From contig JAUQXK010000022.1 of NCBI GenBank assembly GCA_030834695.1, positions 1-35,279 on the forward strand: a stretch of 35,279 nucleotides of DNA, read 5' to 3'. Shown here piece after piece: positions 1,134 to 32,804 of the stretch (within the stretch, counting starts at the first letter, position 1; each line of letters begins with the position of its first letter). Origin of the DNA: Desulfobacterales bacterium (lineage in GTDB: Bacteria > Desulfobacterota > Desulfobacteria > Desulfobacterales > SpSt-501). Position numbers and translations under genes: made by a program. Under the pieces are notes generated by a model. That model saw only the letters and a list, made by a program, of their open reading frames with translations. It was not told the origin of the DNA and did not search any database.

Positions 1134-1751
1134 ATGATCGTCGCAGGACTGACGGGCGGTATCGCCACGGGAAAATCGACGGTCGCCGCTATTTTCGAAA
1201 AAGCCGGCGCGCGCCTGATCGACGCCGACCGGATCGCGCGTGAAGCCGTTCGGAAGGGTTCTCCCGCCTACCGGGATATCGTGGCGCATTTCGGTAAGGA
1301 CGTCCTGTTCGGCGACGGAGAGATCGACCGCAAGCGGTTGGCGGCCATCATTTTCAACAACCCGGCCGAGCAACGGGCGCTGGAGCACATCGTCCACCCG
1401 CAGGTCAAGCAGGAAGTCGACCGGAGGGTGGCCCTGATTCGACGGCAGGCGCCGGACGCCCTGATCATCTTGGACATTCCACTGCTGTTTGAGGCCGGCA
1501 TGCAGCCGGGGATGGATGCGGTCATCGTCGTCTATGCGCCGAAGCACCTCCAGCTCGCACGCCTTATGGCCCGAGACGGACTGACCGAGCCCGAGGCCCT
1601 CGCCCGCATCCGGGCCCAAATGCCGATCGAATCTAAAAGGGCTCTGGCTACGCGCGTGATCGACAATTCCGGTTCCCGGGAGCAGACCCGTCAGCAGGCG
1701 CTGGAGATCTATCGCCAATTGGCGGGAAGCCAAACGCAGAGCATAGGGTAA
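1134..1751 (+). CDS. coaE: Dephospho-CoA kinase
   Basis: CoaE phosphorylates the 3'-hydroxyl of dephospho-CoA with ATP, the last step of coenzyme A synthesis, in the cytoplasm. The 205 residues match the usual family length. The P-loop is at 8-16 (GGIATGKST), followed by the family motif LIDADRIAR with acidic residues D30 and D32, and by the DIPLLFEAG segment in the CoA-binding region. The start ATG is preceded by GGAGG at normal spacing. The gene stands alone and converges with the CULT-domain gene; there is no coaBC or coaD nearby. The last residues (QTQSIG) run into a possible terminator stem. Confidence 0.96.
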   Translation: MIVAGLTGGIATGKSTVAAIFEKAGARLIDADRIAREAVRKGSPAYRDIVAHFGKDVLFGDGEIDRKRLAAIIFNNPAEQRALEHIVHPQVKQEVDRRVALIRRQAPDALIILDIPLLFEAGMQPGMDAVIVVYAPKHLQLARLMARDGLTEPEALARIRAQMPIESKRALATRVIDNSGSREQTRQQALEIYRQLAGSQTQSIG

Positions 1752-1812: not shown

Positions 1813-2244
1813 TTACGGGTAAGGCTCGATCAGGCGATCGAGGATCAATCCGTGAAAGGCGCCGCCGCCCGAAGCTGTAAAAAGCCACCCCAGATGAGCC
1901 AGGCATGCGGCGCAGACGCACACACGCCAGCGGTGTCCTGGAAACCAGGTAAATTCGTCCGAGGCCGGACCGATCACCCCGCATCCCGGAGCGTTTTGAA
2001 AGCAACCGATCTCGAAAACGAGTCCGTGGGGATTGGCGAAGGTATGCATGTGCCGTCCCTGAACGCTGATGCGGTCGGCCGGCCGCGCGATCGGGTGCAG
2101 GCAGGCGCGGCAGAGGATATAAATTTCCTCGTGCGGTGCCCGCTCGCCGGCGGCTTCGGTTCCGATGGTCGGAGCCGGCGGATCCTGCGGCCGTCCCGGC
2201 GGCTGGCGCAGGCGTTGGACGCTGGGTGCGGCCGGAGCTATCAT
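1813..2244 (-). CDS. Cereblon-like CULT-domain protein
   Basis: This 143-residue protein has a Pro/Ala-rich N-terminal tail (about 1-38) and one CULT domain (about 39-141). CULT is the fold by which human cereblon binds thalidomide and C-terminal cyclic imides. Bacterial single-domain homologues, such as the Magnetospirillum gryphiswaldense protein, bind uracil- and imide-like ligands in vitro. Both zinc knuckles are present (C45-x2-C48 and C111-x2-C114). The ligand cage is intact: W100 in FTWFPG, W106 in HRWRV, and W120 with F122 in HLGWLF. F122 corresponds to cereblon F402, where the Magnetospirillum protein has Tyr. The ATG at 2244 follows a good AAGGGAGGG site. No ubiquitin-like or protease partner is adjacent. 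The domain call is firm, but the cellular role is unknown. Confidence 0.88.
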   Translation of the reverse strand: MIAPAAPSVQRLRQPPGRPQDPPAPTIGTEAAGERAPHEEIYILCRACLHPIARPADRISVQGRHMHTFANPHGLVFEIGCFQNAPGCGVIGPASDEFTWFPGHRWRVCVCAACLAHLGWLFTASGGGAFHGLILDRLIEPYP

Positions 2245-2430: not shown

Positions 2431-2637
2431 ATGCCGATTTACGAATTCGAATGCCCGAAGGGAACTGTCACCGAGCGCTGGGTCGCCATGGGTACGGAAA
2501 GCATTTCCTGCCCGTGCTGCCAGAAAAAGGCACCCAAAATAATTTCACGCTTTTCCTTTGAACTGAAGGGCGGCGGATGGTTTGCCGATGGATATGCCTC
2601 CCGCAGACCGTCCGGCAAATCCTCCGACTCACGCTGA
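2431..2637 (+). CDS. FmdB-family putative zinc ribbon protein
   Basis: This is a 68-residue protein opening with the family hallmark MPIYEFEC. It has a cysteine knuckle SCPCC (C27, C29, C30) and the conserved SRFSFELKGGGWF segment after the ribbon. FmdB-type proteins are small putative regulators of uncertain function. The usual first knuckle C-x2-C is broken: C8 is present but residue 11 is Gly. C29 or another ligand would have to compensate if zinc is bound. Start 2431 is chosen because GGAGAG lies seven bases upstream and the family begins at MPIYE; an upstream TTG at 2371 would add an unrelated extension. Confidence 0.8.
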   Translation: MPIYEFECPKGTVTERWVAMGTESISCPCCQKKAPKIISRFSFELKGGGWFADGYASRRPSGKSSDSR

Positions 2638-3285: not shown

Positions 3286-4818
3286 ATGAACAAAAGCCTA
3301 TCGCCCCCCGTCGCGCCCGAAGAAACAACTCTGCCGGACTGCGCGCCATCAAAACTATCCATTCCGAATGATCCTTTCTACATAGAGCCCGCCTGCCGTT
3401 ACGTCGCCGCAGTCGCCGGTCAAATCGGGTTCGACGCCCTCCAGGCGCAGGACATCTCTGCAGGCCTGCACCGCGCGCTCACCACTCTCCTGCGGTACTC
3501 CTTCGAGCCGAACGAACGGGCATCGGTCGAGCTGGTCAGTGAGCGAATCCCGGCCGGGCTGAGGCTATCCCTCCGCGACCAGGGGCTGCCCCTCAGTCCG
3601 GCGGACGGCGGCAGCGGGGGTGCCGGCGCCGGCAACCCGCTCTATGGGCTGAACGCGTATTTCGATGAGGTCCGCTTCCACAACCGAGGGCGGGAAGGCA
3701 AGGAAATCATTCTGAGCAAGCACCTGCCCGACCCGTCCATCACGGACGATGCGGCGGCCTGCGCATGGGACGCCAATGAGGCATCGGGTTCCGGGCGCGC
3801 CGCTGCGCAGACGGAGGCTCACTGTACCGTCCGCCGCCTGAAGCCCTCCGAAGCCCATGAAGTCTCCAAGGCGGTTTACCGAGCCTACGGTTATTCCTAT
3901 CCCCATGATTACGTTTACTATCCGGAAAAAATCGCCGAGCTCAATCGTCGCGGGGACATTTTCTCAGCGGTCGCCGTAGCCGAAAATCAAGAAATTGCCG
4001 GGCATTGCTCGCTGAAACGCTGGGAGGAAAACCCACGGATTGCGGAGATGGCCCAGGGGGTCGTCAAACCTCGGTTTCGTTCTCAGGGGTGCTTCGCGCA
4101 GCTGACCGAGTACCTGATCGAAGCCGCCCGCGGCCAGGGGCTCACCGGGATCTTCGGAGAGGCCGTGACCACCCATCCCTATTCCCAGAAGACGGCGATT
4201 CAATTCGGACTTCGGGATTGCGCCCTGTTTTTAGGCCTGATACCGGCTGCAGCGGATTTCAAGGGGCTGGGAGGAAGCCCGGGCGATCGGGGCAGCATGC
4301 TGGTTCAGTTCCGATATTTGACAACGCCACCCTCGACGCCGGTCTATTCACCGGTTCCTCACCGCGCCATGATCGCCGAAATCCTTGTCAACCTCGGGCG
4401 TGCTCCGGATCTACGCACCCCGCCGCCGGGGGCCGAACGGCCGGCAGCAGCGGAGGCCGCCATCGCCGTCAAGCTCAGCCGATCGTTGAATTTCGCGCGA
4501 ATTCGAATCGACCGCTACGGCCGCAATGCGGTGGGGCTTCTTCGCGAGCAGACCCGGGCACTGTGCCGCCAGAAATGGGACGTGATCCATCTGCTGCTCG
4601 ACTTGTCGGATCCGGCCACCGCCCATTTCGCGAACCGCTTCGAAGAGCTGGGGTTTTTCTTTGCCGGTGTGCTTCCCTGCGGGCTCCCCGCCGGTGATGT
4701 CCTGATCCTGCAGCACCTGAACCACCTCGTCGTTCCGTACGAATCCATTCAGACGGAATCGGAGTTTGCCGGCCGACTGGCTGCCTATGTGCGGCAGTGC
4801 GACCCATCACGCGCCTGA
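3286..4818 (+). CDS. Fusion of a degenerate HATPase_c-like domain and a GNAT acetyltransferase
   Basis: This is a 510-residue soluble protein. Residues about 30-145 resemble anti-sigma-factor-type HATPase domains of the RsbW group. The G1-like box RDQGLPLSP (98-106) is visible, but the N-box is altered: R63 and T67 replace the usual Glu and Asn, so ATP binding or hydrolysis is doubtful. A Ser/Ala-rich linker (about 150-178) leads to a GNAT domain (about 180-325). Its acetyl-CoA loop includes RFRSQGCF near 263-270, followed by the helix FAQLTEYLIEAA. Residues about 330-510 form a further alpha/beta region, possibly a second degenerate GNAT fold. Substrate is unknown. A link to a partner-switching stress response is inference from the N-terminal domain and the adjacent uspA. 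No strong ribosome binding site is visible. Confidence 0.72.
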   Translation: MNKSLSPPVAPEETTLPDCAPSKLSIPNDPFYIEPACRYVAAVAGQIGFDALQAQDISAGLHRALTTLLRYSFEPNERASVELVSERIPAGLRLSLRDQGLPLSPADGGSGGAGAGNPLYGLNAYFDEVRFHNRGREGKEIILSKHLPDPSITDDAAACAWDANEASGSGRAAAQTEAHCTVRRLKPSEAHEVSKAVYRAYGYSYPHDYVYYPEKIAELNRRGDIFSAVAVAENQEIAGHCSLKRWEENPRIAEMAQGVVKPRFRSQGCFAQLTEYLIEAARGQGLTGIFGEAVTTHPYSQKTAIQFGLRDCALFLGLIPAAADFKGLGGSPGDRGSMLVQFRYLTTPPSTPVYSPVPHRAMIAEILVNLGRAPDLRTPPPGAERPAAAEAAIAVKLSRSLNFARIRIDRYGRNAVGLLREQTRALCRQKWDVIHLLLDLSDPATAHFANRFEELGFFFAGVLPCGLPAGDVLILQHLNHLVVPYESIQTESEFAGRLAAYVRQCDPSRA

Positions 4819-8367: not shown

Positions 8368-9281
8368 TGCGCGGAATATGCCTCCTGCGATCCCTTGCCG
8401 CCGCGCGATTTCGAGAGCTTGCCCTCCAGAAGCGACCGCAGGCGCCAAACCGCCCAATCCTGGCCCTGCAGCAGGAGAACGCGGCGCTGGGCCCCCGATT
8501 GGATTTCCACGCCGACGTCGACGAATCCGGCCAGCGCCTCGTCGGAAATACCCACGCGGGTGATCTGCCCGGAGACGTCCAGCAGCCGTTCCGGCTGAGG
8601 TATCAGCCCGCGGCGATCTTCCTCCGGCAGCGCGGCCAGCGCCGCAAAAAACCGTTCGGCGGGATAAATTCGATTTTGGAAGCTGACCAGATCCTCCAGG
8701 GACTGGCTGGTCATGTCGCTTCGGCGGGCCAGCAGGGCGACGCTGGCGGCGGGGACTCTGAACTGGCGCAGCACCTGGTTGTTCGGCTCCAGCAGATACA
8801 CCATGAGGCCGTCCGCCGTCTTTTCGAGATAGGCCCGCGTCCAACGCTTTTCACTGGTGAATCGCAGCAGGTCGAAGGGGGAAATCATTTCCGCGGCGAT
8901 TCCGGAGGGGATCTTCTGATAGAGCTCTCGAAAGTGCTCGGCGGAAAGCATGGCGCCCTGTCCGGGCGCCAGCGCCGAGACGACCTCGTTCAATGTCCCG
9001 GCATTGCGGGCCATGCGTTGATGCGCTTCGCGGTCGGAAGCGAGTTTGTCGACCGCCATGCGCGCGGCCTGGGTTTTGCGCCCCTTTTCCCAAATGGCAC
9101 CGGACTCGGGCCGGTCTTCGTTGACGGCAACCAGGTACGCGCCGACGATCCGCTCCGCCCAGTTCAACTTCATCTCGGATGCGATCAGGGCCAGCAGCAC
9201 CGGTGCCAGCATGAAAACCGGTGCGGCGAAAACCCTGACACTCCACGGCCGCAGGTTCTTGATGTCTGTCAGCTCTTGCAT
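8364..9281 (-). CDS. Membrane-anchored protein of unknown function, first gene of the PBP operon
   Basis: This is a 305-residue protein with a cytoplasmic N-terminus, one clear transmembrane segment (about 17-34, FAAPVFMLAPVLLALIAS) and a soluble, probably periplasmic remainder rich in Ala, Arg and Glu. I do not recognise the family. The stop codon overlaps the start of the PBP gene by four bases, implying translational coupling, so a role as accessory factor or regulator of that PBP is a reasonable inference. No strong ribosome binding site is seen before ATG 9281. The Lys/Ser/Gly-rich C-terminus looks unstructured. Confidence 0.72.
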   Translation of the reverse strand: MQELTDIKNLRPWSVRVFAAPVFMLAPVLLALIASEMKLNWAERIVGAYLVAVNEDRPESGAIWEKGRKTQAARMAVDKLASDREAHQRMARNAGTLNEVVSALAPGQGAMLSAEHFRELYQKIPSGIAAEMISPFDLLRFTSEKRWTRAYLEKTADGLMVYLLEPNNQVLRQFRVPAASVALLARRSDMTSQSLEDLVSFQNRIYPAERFFAALAALPEEDRRGLIPQPERLLDVSGQITRVGISDEALAGFVDVGVEIQSGAQRRVLLLQGQDWAVWRLRSLLEGKLSKSRGGKGSQEAYSAQ

Positions 9282-10971: not shown

Positions 10972-12297
10972 ATGATGGATACAGAGTCACCCCACGATGC
11001 AGCGGCAGGTCCGGCTCCACCGGACTTTTGGCGTCTGACGCGGTTTTTCTTTCCGCTGGCGATTCAGGCGGCCTCCCAGTCGTTGTGCTACCCGCTGGTG
11101 GCCATGGTGGCCACCCGCGGCCCCGGCGGGCCGCTGGACTTGGCGGGCCTGGCTCAGTCCAACACCGTTCTGTTCTTCCTCGGCATGTTCGCCATCAGCC
11201 TGGTTCCGACCGGGATGGTCTTCGCGCGCACCCGCGAGGGCTACCGTCAGTTCTACCGAATGACGCTGGCCGCCGGCCTCTGCGCTTCGGCCGCTCAGGG
11301 GCTTCTTTGTCTCCCGGAGATCTCACACCTGCTCTTCGGCCGGCTGATCGGCCTTCCGCCATCGATTGAAGCCCCGGCCCAGATGACGCTGCTGGCCAGC
11401 ATCCCGCTGCAGCTGCTGTTCTTTTCGCGCATCCCGTATTTCGTCGTCATGTACCTGGGCCAGGCCACCGGGATCGCCAGCCTGGCTACCATCGGCCGGG
11501 TGGTGCTGACGGCCGTTCTTTCTCCTCTGTTTTGCTGGACGGGGCTGGTCGGACCGCTATGGGCCGTGGTGGCCTTGACGCTGCCCGTAGGAATCGAGGC
11601 GATTGTGTCCTGGGCGTTTGCGCGGCCCTTCTTGAAGAACCAACCCCGCGATCCTCGTAACGCGCCCCGGCTGAGAGAGCTTTTTCTGTTTACGGTGCCC
11701 CTGACCATCGGCGGTTATTTTCTGTCGCTGTCGACCATTCTCCTGGCGGGAATCGTCGCACGCGCCCCCGAGCCCGAGCGCATGCTTCCGATTTATTACC
11801 TGGCCCTCGGCCTGGCGAGCCCGGTGGCATTTGCCGGCACCCGGATGCAGACCATTGTGCTCGCTTTCCCCCCGGCCGATCGACACCGGCGGGAAACGCT
11901 GCGCTTCGCTGTCGTCGCCGGATTCCTGCTGGGACTTCTGCCGCTCGTGTTCATTCTGCCGGGTCCGGCGGAATTTTATTACATCCGGCTGCAAAACTTG
12001 AATGCATTGGACCTGGAATGGGTTCGCCAAACAGCGGCGGTCCTCGTGCTGCTGCCGCTGGCCGTGGCCTTGCGGGCCCAGAGCGAAGGCCTGGCGACCT
12101 GGCGCAAAAAACCCTTGATCGTGCTCTCCGGGCATGCCATGTTTTTACTGGCCGCCTCGGTGACCGGCATCATGGCCTTGAGCGCCGGCATACCCGGATG
12201 CCTCATCGGAGCCGCCAGCCTGCCGATCGGCAGCCTGGCGTCATCGGCGACGATGCGCCTGGCATTGAAGAAGAAAGTCAGTCCTCTTCCCATTTGA
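10972..12297 (+). CDS. Polytopic membrane protein, MATE/MOP-superfamily-like (possibly ANKH-type)
   Basis: This 441-residue protein has about 11-12 hydrophobic helices and short loops, with a soluble N-terminal stretch of about 15 residues. The overall pattern (opening FWRLTRFFFPLAIQAASQS, repeated bundles of paired helices) suggests the MOP flippase/MATE superfamily. It also resembles ANKH-like bacterial proteins, but I cannot separate these by eye. A substrate cannot be given; export of a small organic ion or lipid-linked sugar is possible. The start is one of two adjacent ATG codons (10972 and 10975) with no strong ribosome binding site. Its 3' end overlaps the convergent ferredoxin gene by 20 bases. 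Confidence 0.68.
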   Translation: MMDTESPHDAAAGPAPPDFWRLTRFFFPLAIQAASQSLCYPLVAMVATRGPGGPLDLAGLAQSNTVLFFLGMFAISLVPTGMVFARTREGYRQFYRMTLAAGLCASAAQGLLCLPEISHLLFGRLIGLPPSIEAPAQMTLLASIPLQLLFFSRIPYFVVMYLGQATGIASLATIGRVVLTAVLSPLFCWTGLVGPLWAVVALTLPVGIEAIVSWAFARPFLKNQPRDPRNAPRLRELFLFTVPLTIGGYFLSLSTILLAGIVARAPEPERMLPIYYLALGLASPVAFAGTRMQTIVLAFPPADRHRRETLRFAVVAGFLLGLLPLVFILPGPAEFYYIRLQNLNALDLEWVRQTAAVLVLLPLAVALRAQSEGLATWRKKPLIVLSGHAMFLLAASVTGIMALSAGIPGCLIGAASLPIGSLASSATMRLALKKKVSPLPI

Positions 12298-13971: not shown

Positions 13972-14898
13972 ATGACCGAGCAGCTGAGCCTGTTTCAAAC
14001 CCCTGATGGCCGAGCCATCGAAGGCCTTGCCGCTGCCGGGCCGATGCCCGGCGAATCGGATGTCGGCGCCGTAGACGAGCTTTTTCGCATCAACCATCGC
14101 TGGCGCAGCCGTTGCAGTTTCCTCGAACTGCTCGAATTCATTTCGCGGCTGACGACCTATTCGCCGCTCAACGCATTTCTCATCCATCTCCAAGATCCTG
14201 CCGCCACGCGCGTGGCCACGGCCAGAATGTGGGCGCGGAAATACCAGCGGCGGCTGCTGCCCGGAGCACGCCCGATCGTTATTCTGGCCCCCATGTCGCC
14301 GGTGTTGTTTGTGTTCGACATCCGCGATACGGAAGGCCCTCCGCTGGACCCGAAGGTCCTTCCGGCGGCAGGCCCCGGCGGACGTCCGGTCCGCCTTCTG
14401 GAAACCACGCTGCACAACTGCGGCATCCAGCGCATAGCGGTGCGCGACGCCACCGGGCTTGACCCTTCCGCCGAGCGCGCCATCCGGCTGACGCCGGCGT
14501 TGCGGAAAAAACATGCGGATCTGGGTCTGGAGCCGAACACGCGCTACCTGGTCCTATTGGACGCCGGGCTGAGCCCCGATCCGAAATTCGCGACCCTGAG
14601 CCTGGAGCTCGGCCGGATTTTCTGTGGCCATCTGGGCATCGACAGCGACGCGTGGTGGCCCGACCGCAAGGACCTCGATTTCGAACGAATCGAAATCGAA
14701 GCCGCCGCCGTCGCCCATCTGGTCTGCCGCCGCAGAGGGCTATCGGCGACTCCCGTGAACGTCCTGGCGGCCTGCATCGAAAAGGATCAGGCGCTGCCTC
14801 CCTTCAGCCTGAATGCCATTTTTCAGGCTGCCCACCATATCGAAGCCATGAGCCGTCGCGCCTGGAAGAAACCCCGCAAGCAGGGCCGCTCCGGGTGA
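13972..14898 (+). CDS. ArdC N-terminal/ImmA-IrrE-like protein with degenerate metalloprotease motif
   Basis: This is a 308-residue soluble protein. Residues about 40-125 resemble the ssDNA-binding N-terminal domain of ArdC antirestriction proteins (SPLNAFLIHLQ, VATARMWARKY, ARPIVILAPMSPVLFVFDI). Residues about 190-255 match the ImmA/IrrE-type zinc peptidase helix pair. The usual HExxH is replaced by L211-E212-L-G-R215, so both zinc histidines are missing, while the following IFCGHLG and the later helix EIEAAAVAHLVCRR are kept. The protein is therefore probably not a protease and may act by binding only. It heads a tight run with the next two genes (gaps of 13 and -4 bases). No mobile-element genes lie nearby, although ArdC proteins are often plasmid-borne. 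Residues 1-35 look disordered. Confidence 0.7.
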   Translation: MTEQLSLFQTPDGRAIEGLAAAGPMPGESDVGAVDELFRINHRWRSRCSFLELLEFISRLTTYSPLNAFLIHLQDPAATRVATARMWARKYQRRLLPGARPIVILAPMSPVLFVFDIRDTEGPPLDPKVLPAAGPGGRPVRLLETTLHNCGIQRIAVRDATGLDPSAERAIRLTPALRKKHADLGLEPNTRYLVLLDAGLSPDPKFATLSLELGRIFCGHLGIDSDAWWPDRKDLDFERIEIEAAAVAHLVCRRRGLSATPVNVLAACIEKDQALPPFSLNAIFQAAHHIEAMSRRAWKKPRKQGRSG

Positions 14899-19265: not shown

Positions 19266-19751
19266 TCAGCGCACCGGAAGGGCCGCCTTCAGGCTCTTCG
19301 GGTTGAAATCCTTGAGGCGCGAGATATGCCGGTTCTCTTCGGCGATGATGGTTTCCAAGTGGATGCGGGTCTCGCTGTCCTCGATGAACGGGGCCACCAT
19401 TTCATAAAAGAGCACGGTGTCCTTCTCGAATTCGATGAAGATCCCGACCAACTCCTCCAGGCTCTCCACGGCGGCGAAATCGACTTCCTTGAGCGAAAAG
19501 CTCTGGCCGCCGACCAGGTCGTCGAAGAGCTCCCGGCTCATTTCTTCCATGAACGGGTTTTTCCCTCCCGTTTCGAGAGAGCACTGGAGCTTGGAAAACC
19601 ACTGACCGTGGCGCGCCTCCTCCTGCGCCATCCAGTCGAGCGCGGCTTTCAGCTCCTCATCGCTTGAGGATTGAATCGCCTGCCGGTAGGTGGCCTCGCC
19701 GTTCTTCTCCAACCGAATCGCCAGATCCAGAATTTCTCGGATCTCAAACAC
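19266..19751 (-). CDS. Ferritin-like/rubrerythrin-type diiron protein
   Basis: This is a 161-residue four-helix protein without a rubredoxin domain. Two E-x2-H motifs, E45-x2-H48 and E139-x2-H142, plus E19 and E109 or E117 in the partner helices, would form a diiron centre. Related proteins reduce peroxide or oxidise iron in anaerobes. The GTG at 19751 is preferred because GGGAGG lies five to six bases before it; the upstream GTG at 19757 is too close to that site. It precedes the subtilase gene on the same strand with a 38-base gap and is divergent from the HerA-like ATPase gene. Confidence 0.82.
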   Translation of the reverse strand: MFEIREILDLAIRLEKNGEATYRQAIQSSSDEELKAALDWMAQEEARHGQWFSKLQCSLETGGKNPFMEEMSRELFDDLVGGQSFSLKEVDFAAVESLEELVGIFIEFEKDTVLFYEMVAPFIEDSETRIHLETIIAEENRHISRLKDFNPKSLKAALPVR

Positions 19752-20016
19752 AAGCACCTCCCGAATGGGTTGAGACGGACCATGGTTTTACAGCCGCCTG
19801 CACAGATTCGATCGGGGTATCATACTCAAAGCCGGGGACAATTTCAAACGCCGGGAAGTAAAGGCCAACGGGCGCATTGACTTCCGTGGTCATTGTCAGT
19901 ATCAAATCGGGTATCCGTTTCAAGCCCGGCGGGGCAGCCGGAGCGCATCCGCTCGCCGGTCTTTCAAACTGTGGAGTGCCTGCATCTAAGATTCTAAGAG
20001 ACCAGGAGGAACGGCC

Positions 20017-22461
20017 ATGACCGCATACGAAAAGCTCGGCGTGTTTTACCTGGGCAAGGCGTTCGACACGGACTCGGGCAAGCTCCGGGACGATCTGCTC
20101 CTCTATGATTCCAAGGATCTCACCACCCACGCCGTCATCATCGGCATGACCGGTAGCGGCAAGACCGGTCTTGCGTTGGGCCTTCTGGAGGAGGCCCTGA
20201 TCGACAACATCCCGGTGATCGCCATCGACCCCAAGGGCGACCTTCCCAACCTGCTGCTGACCTTCCCGAGCCTTTCCGCCGATGAATTTCTGCCCTGGAT
20301 CGACGAGCAGGAAGCTGTCGGTGCGGGCATGAGCCGCAAGCAATTTGCCGAGAAGCAGTCCCAACTTTGGCGCAACGGCCTGGCGGACTGGGGGCAGGAA
20401 CCGGAGCGCATCGCCCGGCTGCGATCGGCCGCGGAATTCGCGGTTTACACCCCGGGCAGCCGGTCCGGGCGGCCGATCAATGCTCTGGGCAGCTTTGCAC
20501 CGCCCGCGGCCGCCATTGCCGCCGACCCCGATCTCCTGCGCGAGCGCGTTCAGAGTACCGTGACCGCCATGCTGGCGCTGACCGGGATCGATGCGGATCC
20601 CCTCACCAGCCGTGAGCACATTTTGATTTCGACGATCTTGAGCGTCGCCTGGTCTCAAGCCAAAGGACTGGATCTTTCCGGCCTGGTGCGCGCCATCCAG
20701 GAGCCTCCGTTCGCCCGCGTAGGGGTGATGGACCTCGAATCCTTTTACCCGGTCAAGGACCGCTTTCAACTCGCCATGCGCTTCAACAACCTGCTGGCAG
20801 CGCCGGGTTTCGAGGCCTGGCTGGAGGGTGAGCCCCTCGACATCGGACGGCTTCTGTTCACCTCGGAGGGCCGGCCCCGCGCCTCCATCTTCACGATCAG
20901 CCACCTGGGCGACACCGAGCGCATGTTCTTCGTATCCAAGCTGCTGACCGAGATTCTGGCCTGGGTGCGGACCCAACCCGGCACCTCCAGCCTGCGGGCC
21001 GTTCTTTATATGGATGAGATCTTCGGCTACTTTCCGCCGGTCAGCAACCCGCCGTCGAAGCAACCGCTCCTGACGCTCCTCAAACAAGCGCGGGCCTTCG
21101 GATTGGGGGTCGTGCTGTCCACCCAGAATCCGGTGGATCTGGATTACCGGGGCCTCGCCAACACCGGCACATGGTTCATCGGGCGCTTGCAGACCGAAGG
21201 CGACAAGGAACGCGTGATGGCCGGTCTCGAGGGGGCTGCTGCCGGCAAGCATTTCAACCGCGGACGGATGGAGCGGATCCTGGCCGGGCTGGGGAAGCGG
21301 GTCTTCCTTCTCAACAACGTGCACGAAAACGAACCGGCCATCTTCCAGACGCGCTGGACGTTGTCCTACCTTCGCGGCCCCATGACGCGCGAAAACATCA
21401 AGCTCCTGACGACCGCGTTAGCGGCCGTGCAACCGGCGGCCGCCGCCGCCGAACCATCTTTGCCGGAAAAAGCGCCGCTGGCCGCTTCGGCGGGGGTTGT
21501 GCTGGAGCCCCAGCCGCCGCTGCCGCCGCCGGGAATCACCGCCTATTACCTGCCGGCCGCCGAGGGGACGCCGGGAATCGAATATTTCCCCGCAGTGGCC
21601 GCCCGTCTGGAAATCCATTACACCAGCGCCAAGCACCGCATCGATCTGGCCCGGTGCCTGGCATATGCAGCACCGCTGTCCGCAGGCCCGGTCCCCCTGG
21701 ACTGGGATCAGGCCACGCCCGTCGAACTGGACCCCTCCGAGCTGAGTTCCAAGCCGGAGGCTCCGGCCGGTTTTGCGGAGCTGCCCGCCGAGGCGAAAAG
21801 GCCCAAGGCCTACGACGCCTGGCGAAAGGACCTGGCCCGCTGGGTTCGCCAGAATTGTGCCCTGCGGCTCCTGCGCTCCGAGCGTTTCGGGGTCACCGCC
21901 GGTCCGGAGGAGCCCCGAGCCGGTTTCATGGCGCGGCTGGCCCAAACTGCCCGGGAGCAGCGCGACCTGGAGGTTGAAAAACTACGCCGGCGCTATGCGG
22001 ACAAGTTCGCCGCGCTGAGGGATCGTTTGATGCGCGCGGAGCAGGCCGTCATGCGCGAGCAGGAGCAACTGTCCGCCAAGAAAGTCGAAACCGCCATCTC
22101 GTTCGGGACTGCCATTCTCGGGGCGTTTCTGGGCCGAAAGGCCGTCAGCGCTACATCGGCCGGGCGCATAGGCACGGCGGCGAAATCCGCCGGGCGCCTG
22201 CGCAAGGAAAGCATGGACGCCGCCCGCGCCCAGGAGAGCGCCGAGGCGGTCAAAACCCAGATGGCGGAACTGGATCGGGCCCTGCAGGCGGACATCGCCA
22301 AACTCGAAACCGCCTTCGACCCGACGGTTGAAAAACTGCAGGAGATCACTGTGGCGCCGACTCCGGCGGGCATCACCCAGGAGTTTTTCGGCCTTGTCTG
22401 GCTGCCCTATCGACGGGACTCGCAAGGCAAGGCCACCCCCGCCTGGCGGGCGGCTTCGTAG
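20017..22461 (+). CDS. HerA-like (DUF853/DUF87-type) ATPase
   Basis: This 814-residue cytoplasmic ATPase of the HerA/FtsK group has Walker A G43-MTGSGKT-50, an acidic motif DPKGDLPNLL (71-80), Walker B VLYMDEIFG (329-337), and the sensor region LSTQNPVDLDYRGL with the following arginine (R390 in FIGRLQ). A Pro/Ala-rich linker (about 470-510) joins a C-terminal half. That half includes a Glu/Arg-rich coiled coil (about 645-690), a short Ala/Gly-rich stretch (about 690-725) and another helical segment. No NurA nuclease or DNA-defence partner lies next to it, so it acts alone or with a distant partner. AGGAGGA lies seven bases before the ATG. Its last codons and stop lie inside the left arm of a palindromic repeat. 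Confidence 0.85.
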   Translation: MTAYEKLGVFYLGKAFDTDSGKLRDDLLLYDSKDLTTHAVIIGMTGSGKTGLALGLLEEALIDNIPVIAIDPKGDLPNLLLTFPSLSADEFLPWIDEQEAVGAGMSRKQFAEKQSQLWRNGLADWGQEPERIARLRSAAEFAVYTPGSRSGRPINALGSFAPPAAAIAADPDLLRERVQSTVTAMLALTGIDADPLTSREHILISTILSVAWSQAKGLDLSGLVRAIQEPPFARVGVMDLESFYPVKDRFQLAMRFNNLLAAPGFEAWLEGEPLDIGRLLFTSEGRPRASIFTISHLGDTERMFFVSKLLTEILAWVRTQPGTSSLRAVLYMDEIFGYFPPVSNPPSKQPLLTLLKQARAFGLGVVLSTQNPVDLDYRGLANTGTWFIGRLQTEGDKERVMAGLEGAAAGKHFNRGRMERILAGLGKRVFLLNNVHENEPAIFQTRWTLSYLRGPMTRENIKLLTTALAAVQPAAAAAEPSLPEKAPLAASAGVVLEPQPPLPPPGITAYYLPAAEGTPGIEYFPAVAARLEIHYTSAKHRIDLARCLAYAAPLSAGPVPLDWDQATPVELDPSELSSKPEAPAGFAELPAEAKRPKAYDAWRKDLARWVRQNCALRLLRSERFGVTAGPEEPRAGFMARLAQTAREQRDLEVEKLRRRYADKFAALRDRLMRAEQAVMREQEQLSAKKVETAISFGTAILGAFLGRKAVSATSAGRIGTAAKSAGRLRKESMDAARAQESAEAVKTQMAELDRALQADIAKLETAFDPTVEKLQEITVAPTPAGITQEFFGLVWLPYRRDSQGKATPAWRAAS

Positions 22462-30610: not shown

Positions 30611-31525
30611 ATGCCGCAGAAAAAACCGTCCAAGCTGCCTCTTAAAAAATTCGCCATGGTCGGGACCGGCATCCAGGGCACCCAGATCGCCATGATCGCC
30701 GCCCGCACCGGCTACGAGGTCACGGTGTTCGACCCGCGCGAGGGCGCCTTCCGCCAGACTTTCGAAAAACTGCGCGCCGACCTCAAGGCCAAGAAAGTCT
30801 CGCCGATCATCCCCTGGAACCAGTGGGAGGCCTGCGCCCGGAACGTCCGCCAGGTGCAGGACCTGCGCGAGGCGGTCCGGGATGCCGATCTCGTCCTCGA
30901 GGCCGTGCCGGAAAATCTTGAAATAAAGAAAAAAGTCTGGAAGGAGATCGGTGCAAAGGCCGCACCCGGCGCCATTCTCGCCACCAACAGCTCATCCATG
31001 CCGGTCTCGCGCATGGAAAAAGCCGGCGGCCGGCCCGAGCAGGTACTGAACATCCACTTCTACTTCCCCATGCAGGGCGTCAACATGGTGGACATCATGG
31101 GTGGCACCCGCACGCGGGCCGACGTCATGGAGAAGGGTGTCGCCTGGATCAAGTCGATCGGGTTCGTGCCGCTCACGGTCAAGAAGGAGTTGCTCGGCTT
31201 TTGCTTCAACCGCGTCTGGCGGGCCATCAAGCGCGAGACGCTCTACATGTGGGGCAACGGGTTCGTGGACTTCATGGACGTGGACCGGGCCTGGATGATC
31301 TTCACGCGCATGAAAGAGGGACCGTTCGCGCTCATGGACAAGGTGGGCCTGGACGTGATCTGGGACATCGAGATGGTCTATTACAACGACTCCAAGGACC
31401 CCAAAGACCACCCGCCTCAGGCATTGAAAGACATGATTGATCGCGGGGAATTGGGCGTCAAGAGCGGCAAGGGGTTTTACACGTATCCGGATCCGGTGTT
31501 CCTGAGCCCGGACTTTTTCAAATAA
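30611..31525 (+). CDS. 3-hydroxyacyl-CoA dehydrogenase-like NAD-dependent oxidoreductase
   Basis: This 304-residue, two-domain protein has a Rossmann motif GTGIQG (18-23), D41 after the second strand, and VPENLEIK near 99. The catalytic region has S127-129, H149 and N200, and the C-terminus has the usual LGVKSGKGFYTYP. The fold should oxidise a 3-hydroxyacyl-CoA or a related hydroxy acid with NAD. Two active-site changes stand out: the Glu that normally pairs with the catalytic His is D161, and the Asn in the HFFNP motif is F152 (HFYFP). These suggest an unusual substrate. GGAGG precedes ATG 30611. It has its own terminator and no thiolase or enoyl-CoA hydratase beside it. Confidence 0.88.
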   Translation: MPQKKPSKLPLKKFAMVGTGIQGTQIAMIAARTGYEVTVFDPREGAFRQTFEKLRADLKAKKVSPIIPWNQWEACARNVRQVQDLREAVRDADLVLEAVPENLEIKKKVWKEIGAKAAPGAILATNSSSMPVSRMEKAGGRPEQVLNIHFYFPMQGVNMVDIMGGTRTRADVMEKGVAWIKSIGFVPLTVKKELLGFCFNRVWRAIKRETLYMWGNGFVDFMDVDRAWMIFTRMKEGPFALMDKVGLDVIWDIEMVYYNDSKDPKDHPPQALKDMIDRGELGVKSGKGFYTYPDPVFLSPDFFK

Positions 31526-31527
31526 AC

Positions 31528-31558
31528 ATCCGCCGGCAAACACCGGCGGATACTTTTG
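31528..31558 (+). terminator. Rho-independent terminator after the 3-hydroxyacyl-CoA dehydrogenase-like gene
   Basis: ATCCGCCGG (31528-31536) and CCGGCGGAT (31543-31551) form a perfect nine-base stem with a six-base loop, followed by ACTTTTG. It starts two bases after the stop codon. Confidence 0.85.
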
Positions 31559-31565
31559 TAACAAG

Positions 31566-32804
31566 TTGAGCAAGCAATCGAAAGGTGTGACAACGGCCGC
31601 AGGCAACCTCCTGACGCTTCCCGGGCTGGTGGCCCTGGCAGTCGTTTTTCTCCTGGCGGCGTGGTATTCGCAGCCCGCCATCCTGATGCTGACCGGCCTG
31701 TTCCTGTCCACCGCCGGCCTGGCCCGCCTGTGGAACCGGTTCGCCCTGACCGGTGTCTGGGCCGAACGGGACCTGGAGACCACGCGCTTTTTCCCGGGCG
31801 AGCCCATCGAGTGCACCCTGCGGCTGTTCAACCGCAAGCCCCTGCCGTTGCCCTGGGTTCAGCTTGAACACGACCTGCCGCCGGAATTCGTCCTGGTTGA
31901 ACCGGCCGGGCGCCGGAACGAGACGCCGATCCGGCGAGCGGCTGCCTTGCTCTGGTACCGCAGCATTACATGGAAGCTCAGGCTGGCCGGCGAGCGGCGC
32001 GGCTACTACCCACTCGGCCCGATGAAGCTCACGTCCGGGGACTTCCTGGGCCTTTATTCCCGCTCGCGGCTGGATGGGAACCCAACGCACCTCATTGTTT
32101 ACCCGCATATCTTTCCGGTCGACACGCGCTTGATCCCCTCGCTGCACCCCATGGGAGAGTTTCAGGCCGTTCGGCCCATGTTCCGGGACCCCACCCATAC
32201 GATCGGCGTGCGGGAATACCTCCGCAGCGACAGCCTCAAATTCATCCACTGGAAGGCCACCGCCCGCCGGGGCGACCTCCAGGTGAAAGTGCTCGCCGCC
32301 ACAACCGCTTTCAAGGTTGCCTTGTTTCTGGACGTAGACAGCTTCCGGTCGGATGACGCTTTCGCCGAAGCCGATTTTGAGCTCGGGATCAGCATGGCCG
32401 GCTCCATCGCGACGGTGCTCTGCGAGCGCGGGAGCCCGGTGGGGTTGTTCGTAAACACCCGGTTGGCCGACACCGGCCAGCCGGCCGTGATCGCACCCGG
32501 CGCCGGCCGCAGCCGGATCGTGGAAATCCTCGAAACCCTGGCCAAGGTCACCGGACGCAGCAGCGGCCCGGCGGCCGCCTTCTTGGACGCCCAGAAATTT
32601 TGCCTCGCTGCCGGCACGACCTTGATTTTCCTGGTAGCGCGACCGGCGGATGGATTTGCGGACCTGCTGGCCGGCTTGAAATCGACCGGTTTCAAAGTCC
32701 TGATGCTGCTCGTCGGCGAGCAGGCCGATCCGGCCGTGCCGCCCGGCGTTCCCTGGCACCGGGTCCGCCGCTCCGACGACCTGGCCGGAGACGCGCGGCC
32801 GTGA
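31566..32804 (+). CDS. DUF58-domain membrane-associated protein
   Basis: This 412-residue protein has one or two N-terminal hydrophobic segments (about 15-52), a beta-rich region, and then the DUF58 hallmark FRDPTHTIGVREYLRSDSLKFIHWKATAR near 210-238. A von-Willebrand-A-like remainder follows, including ALFLDVDSF. Proteins of this family commonly pair with MoxR ATPases, as here two genes downstream. The start is uncertain: TTG 31566 opens the frame without a visible ribosome binding site, and GTG 31587 is an alternative. The DUF4129-type gene overlaps its stop (GTGA). Confidence 0.85.
   Translation: MSKQSKGVTTAAGNLLTLPGLVALAVVFLLAAWYSQPAILMLTGLFLSTAGLARLWNRFALTGVWAERDLETTRFFPGEPIECTLRLFNRKPLPLPWVQLEHDLPPEFVLVEPAGRRNETPIRRAAALLWYRSITWKLRLAGERRGYYPLGPMKLTSGDFLGLYSRSRLDGNPTHLIVYPHIFPVDTRLIPSLHPMGEFQAVRPMFRDPTHTIGVREYLRSDSLKFIHWKATARRGDLQVKVLAATTAFKVALFLDVDSFRSDDAFAEADFELGISMAGSIATVLCERGSPVGLFVNTRLADTGQPAVIAPGAGRSRIVEILETLAKVTGRSSGPAAAFLDAQKFCLAAGTTLIFLVARPADGFADLLAGLKSTGFKVLMLLVGEQADPAVPPGVPWHRVRRSDDLAGDARP

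Follow-up and report, generated by a model that had tools for sequence, protein, structure and literature searches.

The CULT Gene and Its Product

The window is the whole 35,279-nucleotide stretch that was analysed, taken from contig JAUQXK010000022.1 of a Desulfobacterales bacterium. Its minus strand carries a CULT-domain gene (1813..2244), an open reading frame of 143 amino acids with an ATG start. The product consists of one domain and a Pro-rich N-terminal tail (residues 1–40). The CULT, or beta-tent, domain covers residues 41–143 (1816..2124, minus strand), which VIA-align places on residues 20–123 of MsCI4, the CULT protein of Magnetospirillum gryphiswaldense. The tail contains nine prolines among its first 37 residues, and a hydropathy scan finds no hydrophobic 15-residue stretch in it (best mean −0.12). 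As read from the sequence, the 143-residue product appears to be the CULT domain alone, with no signal peptide predicted by hydropathy, and the protein is probably cytosolic. In its own genome (5.65 Mb, 149 contigs), the gene is the single match at E ≤0.001.

The domain contains two C-x2-C motifs, C45-x2-C48 (2101..2112) and C111-x2-C114 (1903..1914), which by homology would form the two zinc knuckles; these and all other residues named here are encoded on the minus strand. The three cage tryptophans are W100 (1945..1947), W106 (1927..1929) and W120 (1885..1887). In the alignment, the superposition and passages of PMC8900816, they correspond to W79, W85 and W99 of MsCI4 and to W380, W386 and W400 of human cereblon, respectively. 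The cage base is F122 (1879..1881), which corresponds to Y101 of MsCI4 and is Phe in human cereblon (passages of PMC8900816). An NPxG motif, N71-P72-H73-G74 (2023..2034), is of the type described for CULT proteins in passages of PMC4449219. In the structural model, it sits between strands 66–70 and 76–82. Two further cysteines, C81 (2002..2004) and C88 (1981..1983), form a pair away from the zinc site. The translation of 1813–2244 has W100, W106, W120, F122, C45-x2-C48 and C111-x2-C114 at the residues given for them in the first-pass annotation, and the protein reads as a bacterial CULT domain with a complete set of tri-Trp cage residues and both zinc knuckles.

Family Assignment and Predicted Structure

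The top PDB sequence match (phmmer) is MsCI4, with an E-value of 3.2e-21 over residues 37–140; eukaryotic cereblons come next, with E-values from 3.4e-14 to 1.6e-10. Every one of the 46 distinct PDB matches with an E-value of up to 1 carries the name cereblon. The Pfam library, which may lack a CULT model, yields no family for the protein at E-values as high as 1, and neither Pfam nor NCBIfam gives a significant match to a different zinc family. At 143 amino acids, and with nothing from Pfam at this threshold, the protein has neither a LON domain nor a DDB1-binding region.

The AlphaFold2 model, built from 99 aligned bacterial sequences, has a mean pLDDT of 88. The values per block are 93–98 over residues 41–140 and 64–72 in the tail. 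The top Foldseek match is again MsCI4 (E 9.9e-11, TM 0.91 by target length). VIA-align superposes the model on MsCI4 with Z 19.3 and an rmsd of 1.5 over 103 residues, and on the best cereblon among its best 50 matches with Z 17.5 and an rmsd of 1.4 over 101 residues. The best 50 matches in Foldseek and the best 50 in VIA-align are all MsCI4 or cereblon. Sequence identity is 35–40% to MsCI4 among the Foldseek matches listed and 33–36% to cereblon among the VIA-align matches listed. With an offset of 21, W100, W106, W120 and F122 land on W79, W85, W99 and Y101 of MsCI4. The predicted fold is a cereblon-type beta-tent. The model also superposes on ligand-bound MsCI4, as would be expected if the three Trp form a pocket. 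The bacterial CULT identity proposed at first annotation is therefore upheld by the sequence match to MsCI4 and by the superpositions on MsCI4 and cereblon.

MsCI4 (MGR_0879; PDB 4V2Y and others) is likewise a single bacterial CULT domain. It has the predicted fold, the three cage tryptophans and the zinc knuckles in common with the window protein, and both proteins carry a Phe where human cereblon has H378 (F98 in the window protein). The two differ at the cage base (Phe in the window protein, Tyr in MsCI4), at the inner residue of the NPxG motif (His versus Ala) and at residue 88 (Cys versus Leu), and the N-terminal tail of the window protein is longer by about 19 residues. The thalidomide-binding domain of human cereblon resembles the window protein in its predicted fold (Z up to 17.5), its cage tryptophans and its base Phe. 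Human cereblon presumably also has NPHG at the hairpin tip, as the window protein does. Unlike the window protein, human cereblon has a LON domain and a DDB1-binding part.

Distribution

All seven genomes of the genus sample, the window's own included, contain a CULT match; the family sample consists of the same seven genomes. Matches are present in 126 of the 194 genomes of the order sample and in at least 39 of the 395 genomes of the phylum sample, where at most 11 candidates were scored per genome. CULT genes are thus common in this order and not rare, contrary to the first-pass annotation, which had described CULT proteins as few outside eukaryotes. Two phylum matches flagged for an in-frame TGA were considered as selenocysteine candidates and rejected: the TGA is the terminal stop.

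Relatives are also present on 25 named contigs. Twelve of these are from Desulfobacterales, Desulfobacteraceae, Desulfobulbus or other deltaproteobacteria, six from Gammaproteobacteria, three from Rhodospirillales or Rhodospirillaceae, two from Spirochaetes and one from Proteobacteria. The remaining one is a 3.8-kb contig assigned to Acidobacteria that could be misbinned. The closest relative among the named contigs is in a Desulfobacterales MAG (L034). This spread fits the bacterial CULT group described in 2015, which in passages of PMC4287342 comprises delta-, alpha- and gammaproteobacteria and one spirochaete. The window protein has the domain make-up and the lineage of that group, and nothing essential differs from the account in those passages.

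Pattern scans of viral contigs find no confirmed CULT relative, and tblastn finds no CULT match in phages or plasmids. A mobile or phage origin is rejected on these grounds.

Sequence Conservation

Conservation was assessed over 99 distinct loci: the window, the 25 named contigs and 80 of the 125 other matching genomes of the order, minus seven duplicates. The 80 genomes are mostly from the top of the match list, with several short contigs skipped, and the sample leans towards relatives of the window protein. Eleven residues are invariant in all 99 loci: C45, C48, N71, W100, F101, W106, C111, C114, G119, W120 and F130. These include all four cysteines of the zinc knuckles. In the NPxG motif, P72 and G74 are each present in 90% or more of the loci. 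One copy, at L154 (genome G345), is broken by a stop within the domain, 3' of the codon for the second cage Trp.

Position 122 is Phe in 76 loci and Tyr in 23 (82 and 24 in the 106 rows that include the seven duplicates). Phe is carried by the window protein and by 75 of the 98 other loci. On a quick tree of 113 columns, from which column 122 was left out and in which 47 of the 96 inner branches are weakly supported, the state at this position changes at least 12 times. Given this majority and these repeated changes, Phe 122 is the ordinary state in the sample and does not point to a closer relationship with human cereblon or with eukaryotes. The earlier description of position 122 as Phe, as in human cereblon, and Tyr in MsCI4 stands; its noteworthiness does not.

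Cys occupies both position 81 and position 88 in 89 of the 99 bacterial CULT loci. MsCI4 has the first cysteine only. In the AlphaFold2 model, the two residues are on adjacent strands (76–82 and 88–95), away from the zinc site. On the same tree, the pair goes through five or more changes of state. A redox or metal role for the pair is possible. The passages of the CULT literature consulted contain no account of it.

Genomic Context

The CULT gene is convergent with coaE, which encodes dephospho-CoA kinase (1134..1751, plus strand; Pfam CoaE 8.3e-59, TIGR00152 8.3e-56). It is divergent from an FmdB-type zinc-ribbon gene (2431..2637, plus strand; TIGR02605 2.2e-10), after which comes a universal stress protein gene. 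Given this orientation towards both neighbours, the CULT gene is probably transcribed alone. For the CULT strand, a promoter scan is negative, and the lone terminator-like site on that strand falls within the CULT gene.

In all six genus relatives, the 3' side of the CULT gene carries coaE together with an HSP20-like gene, and the 5' side carries SPOR and PBP1 genes. Among the 98 loci other than the window, coaE is near the CULT gene in six and the FmdB-type gene in eight. Neighbourhoods were compared by using ORFs of 60 or more amino acids within 6 kb of the CULT gene in the 99 loci, some of which are clipped by contig ends. No seed cluster is present in more than 14 of the 99. The survey of neighbours in related genomes therefore has two outcomes: coaE adjoins the CULT gene throughout the genus relatives, and there is no order-wide partner. 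In the Pfam survey of adjacent ORFs, no family is common to more than 5 of 81 upstream ORFs or more than 6 of 86 downstream ORFs. These are the ORFs left from 98 upstream and 97 downstream after exclusion of those shorter than 75 amino acids, those 300 or more bases away and the window's own. Neither protein repair nor pyrimidine metabolism is represented among the families listed (25 of 94 upstream, 25 of 121 downstream). Neighbouring ORFs were called by a greedy longest-ORF procedure, which can select shadow ORFs; a known case is 9836–10609 of L059, which lies opposite coaE.

The best neighbour cluster by position is an ORF of about 179 amino acids, 3' of the CULT gene and on the same strand in 11 loci from six GTDB families (L060, L061, L064, L066, L067, L068, L071, L073, L076, L078 and L115). 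In nine of the 11, it is within 400 bases of the CULT gene. Its product is uncharacterised and has a strongly conserved N-terminus, and none of the three members scanned has a Pfam family above cut-off. The ORF is present in 44 of the 194 order genomes; CULT is present in 37 of these 44 and in 89 of the 150 others, a comparison of lists made by hand that ignores shared ancestry. It is present in none of the seven genus genomes and therefore provides no explanation for the window gene.

Several other features of these regions were recorded. In L059, the nearest relative, an FmdB-type zinc ribbon and a universal stress protein are fused in one frame (8531–9169, minus strand). The ribbon is just below the Pfam cut-off, and the window has two separate ORFs instead. 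At 3286–4818 (plus strand), the window encodes a 510-residue protein with a weak HATPase_c_2 match (histidine-kinase-like ATPase, below cut-off) and a GNAT acetyltransferase domain. Relatives of this protein are near CULT in 5 of the 98 other loci. Four of the ten long ORFs scanned in the window (10972–12297, 13972–14898, 19744–21324 and 31518–32759) match no Pfam family at E 1e-5, and some of these may be shadow frames.

Ligand and Possible Function

The window protein is best described as a stand-alone member of the bacterial CULT group that Lupas et al. (2015) described, with a beta-tent domain that would be pinned by zinc. W100, W106 and W120, together with F122, would form an aromatic cage in which a planar uracil- or cyclic-imide-like ring is held by backbone hydrogen bonds. 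MsCI4 binds both glutarimide and deoxyuridine, according to PDB entry titles and passages of PMC8900816 and PMC4449219. By homology with such proteins, the most likely ligand of the window protein is a ring of this class. The family, the fold and the ligand class taken together are given a probability of about 0.85.

The role in the cell is a matter of guesswork. Human CRBN recognises C-terminal cyclic imides (passages of PMC12117711), and passages of PMC4449219 caution that the natural CULT ligand may differ from thalidomide. Our tentative guess, with the odds somewhat against it, is that the window protein would be a reader of a damage-derived cyclic imide, such as an aspartimide or glutarimide at a protein C-terminus, as human cereblon is. 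Among the openly accessible papers listed by literature searches, none assigns a function to a bacterial CULT protein in its title or abstract opening. Bacteria are not known to have the ubiquitin machinery through which the cage of cereblon takes effect. Isoaspartate methyltransferase (PIMT) was considered as a link between CULT and protein damage. All 194 order genomes have a match, 189 of them above cut-off (in the control, 13 of 14 genomes match, four above cut-off). Because there is no contrast among the order genomes, the presence of PIMT cannot be tied to CULT, and the survey is no guide to such a link.

Alternatively, the protein may be a sensor or carrier of uracil, uridine or hydantoin in pyrimidine metabolism and not a reader of protein ends. 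MsCI4 binds uracil and uridine (passages of PMC4287342), and its structure with deoxyuridine is available (PDB 4v31). Against this, the 25 families listed in each of the two neighbour surveys include no pyrimidine family, and we regard the role as rather unlikely. The cyclic-imide reader is ranked slightly above uridine sensing because damage of this kind needs no eukaryote-specific chemistry. The probability left after these two roles falls to a ligand that is neither a cyclic imide nor uridine or uracil.

It is doubtful that the protein is a redox-gated binder in these bacteria, with C81 and C88 acting next to the cage as a disulfide or redox switch. The frequency with which both are Cys and their position on neighbouring strands would suit such a switch, whereas the Leu at position 88 in MsCI4 and the repeated changes of state on the tree argue against it.

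A divergent methionine-R-sulfoxide reductase (MsrB) would have the beta-tent fold in common with CULT, and passages of PMC4287342 describe the two binding sites as homologous. The sole NCBIfam match of the window protein is to an MsrB model (E 0.13 over 16 residues), in a library that may lack a CULT model. However, this match is not significant, scoring 12 bits where the cut-off is 179, and the MsrB-type Arg/His site is missing: by the correspondences in PMC4287342, as far as its passages give them, W106 and W120 take the places of the Arg and the His. The best 50 fold matches include no MsrB, all being MsCI4 or cereblon, and this enzyme is very improbable. A 167-residue ORF overlaps on the plus strand (1771–2274), but the possibility that the CULT frame is a fortuitous ORF antisense to a gene can be dismissed in view of the sequence and fold matches, the presence of the gene in every genus genome and a dN/dS of 0.23–0.41 in the CULT frame against six genus relatives (dS >1 in five of the six pairs).

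The window gene adds one member to the family published in 2015, from the main lineage named there (passages of PMC4287342). Crystallographers use MsCI4 as a surrogate for human cereblon, from which it departs at the base of the cage (passages of PMC8900816), and a humanised MsCI4 is already among the structure matches (PDB 9gjq). The window protein and the other loci with Phe 122 carry this cage base naturally, which may be of practical use. A broader and speculative proposal, which we consider unlikely as a whole, is that the lone bacterial CULT protein is a ubiquitin-free reader of cyclic-imide damage at protein ends, that the cage already read protein damage when it came to be joined to an E3 ligase and that the conserved Cys pair of this lineage, next to the cage, could gate it. 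Because CULT genes are widespread and conserved within one order, the nature of the ancestral CULT ligand is a question that can be put to the test in bacteria.
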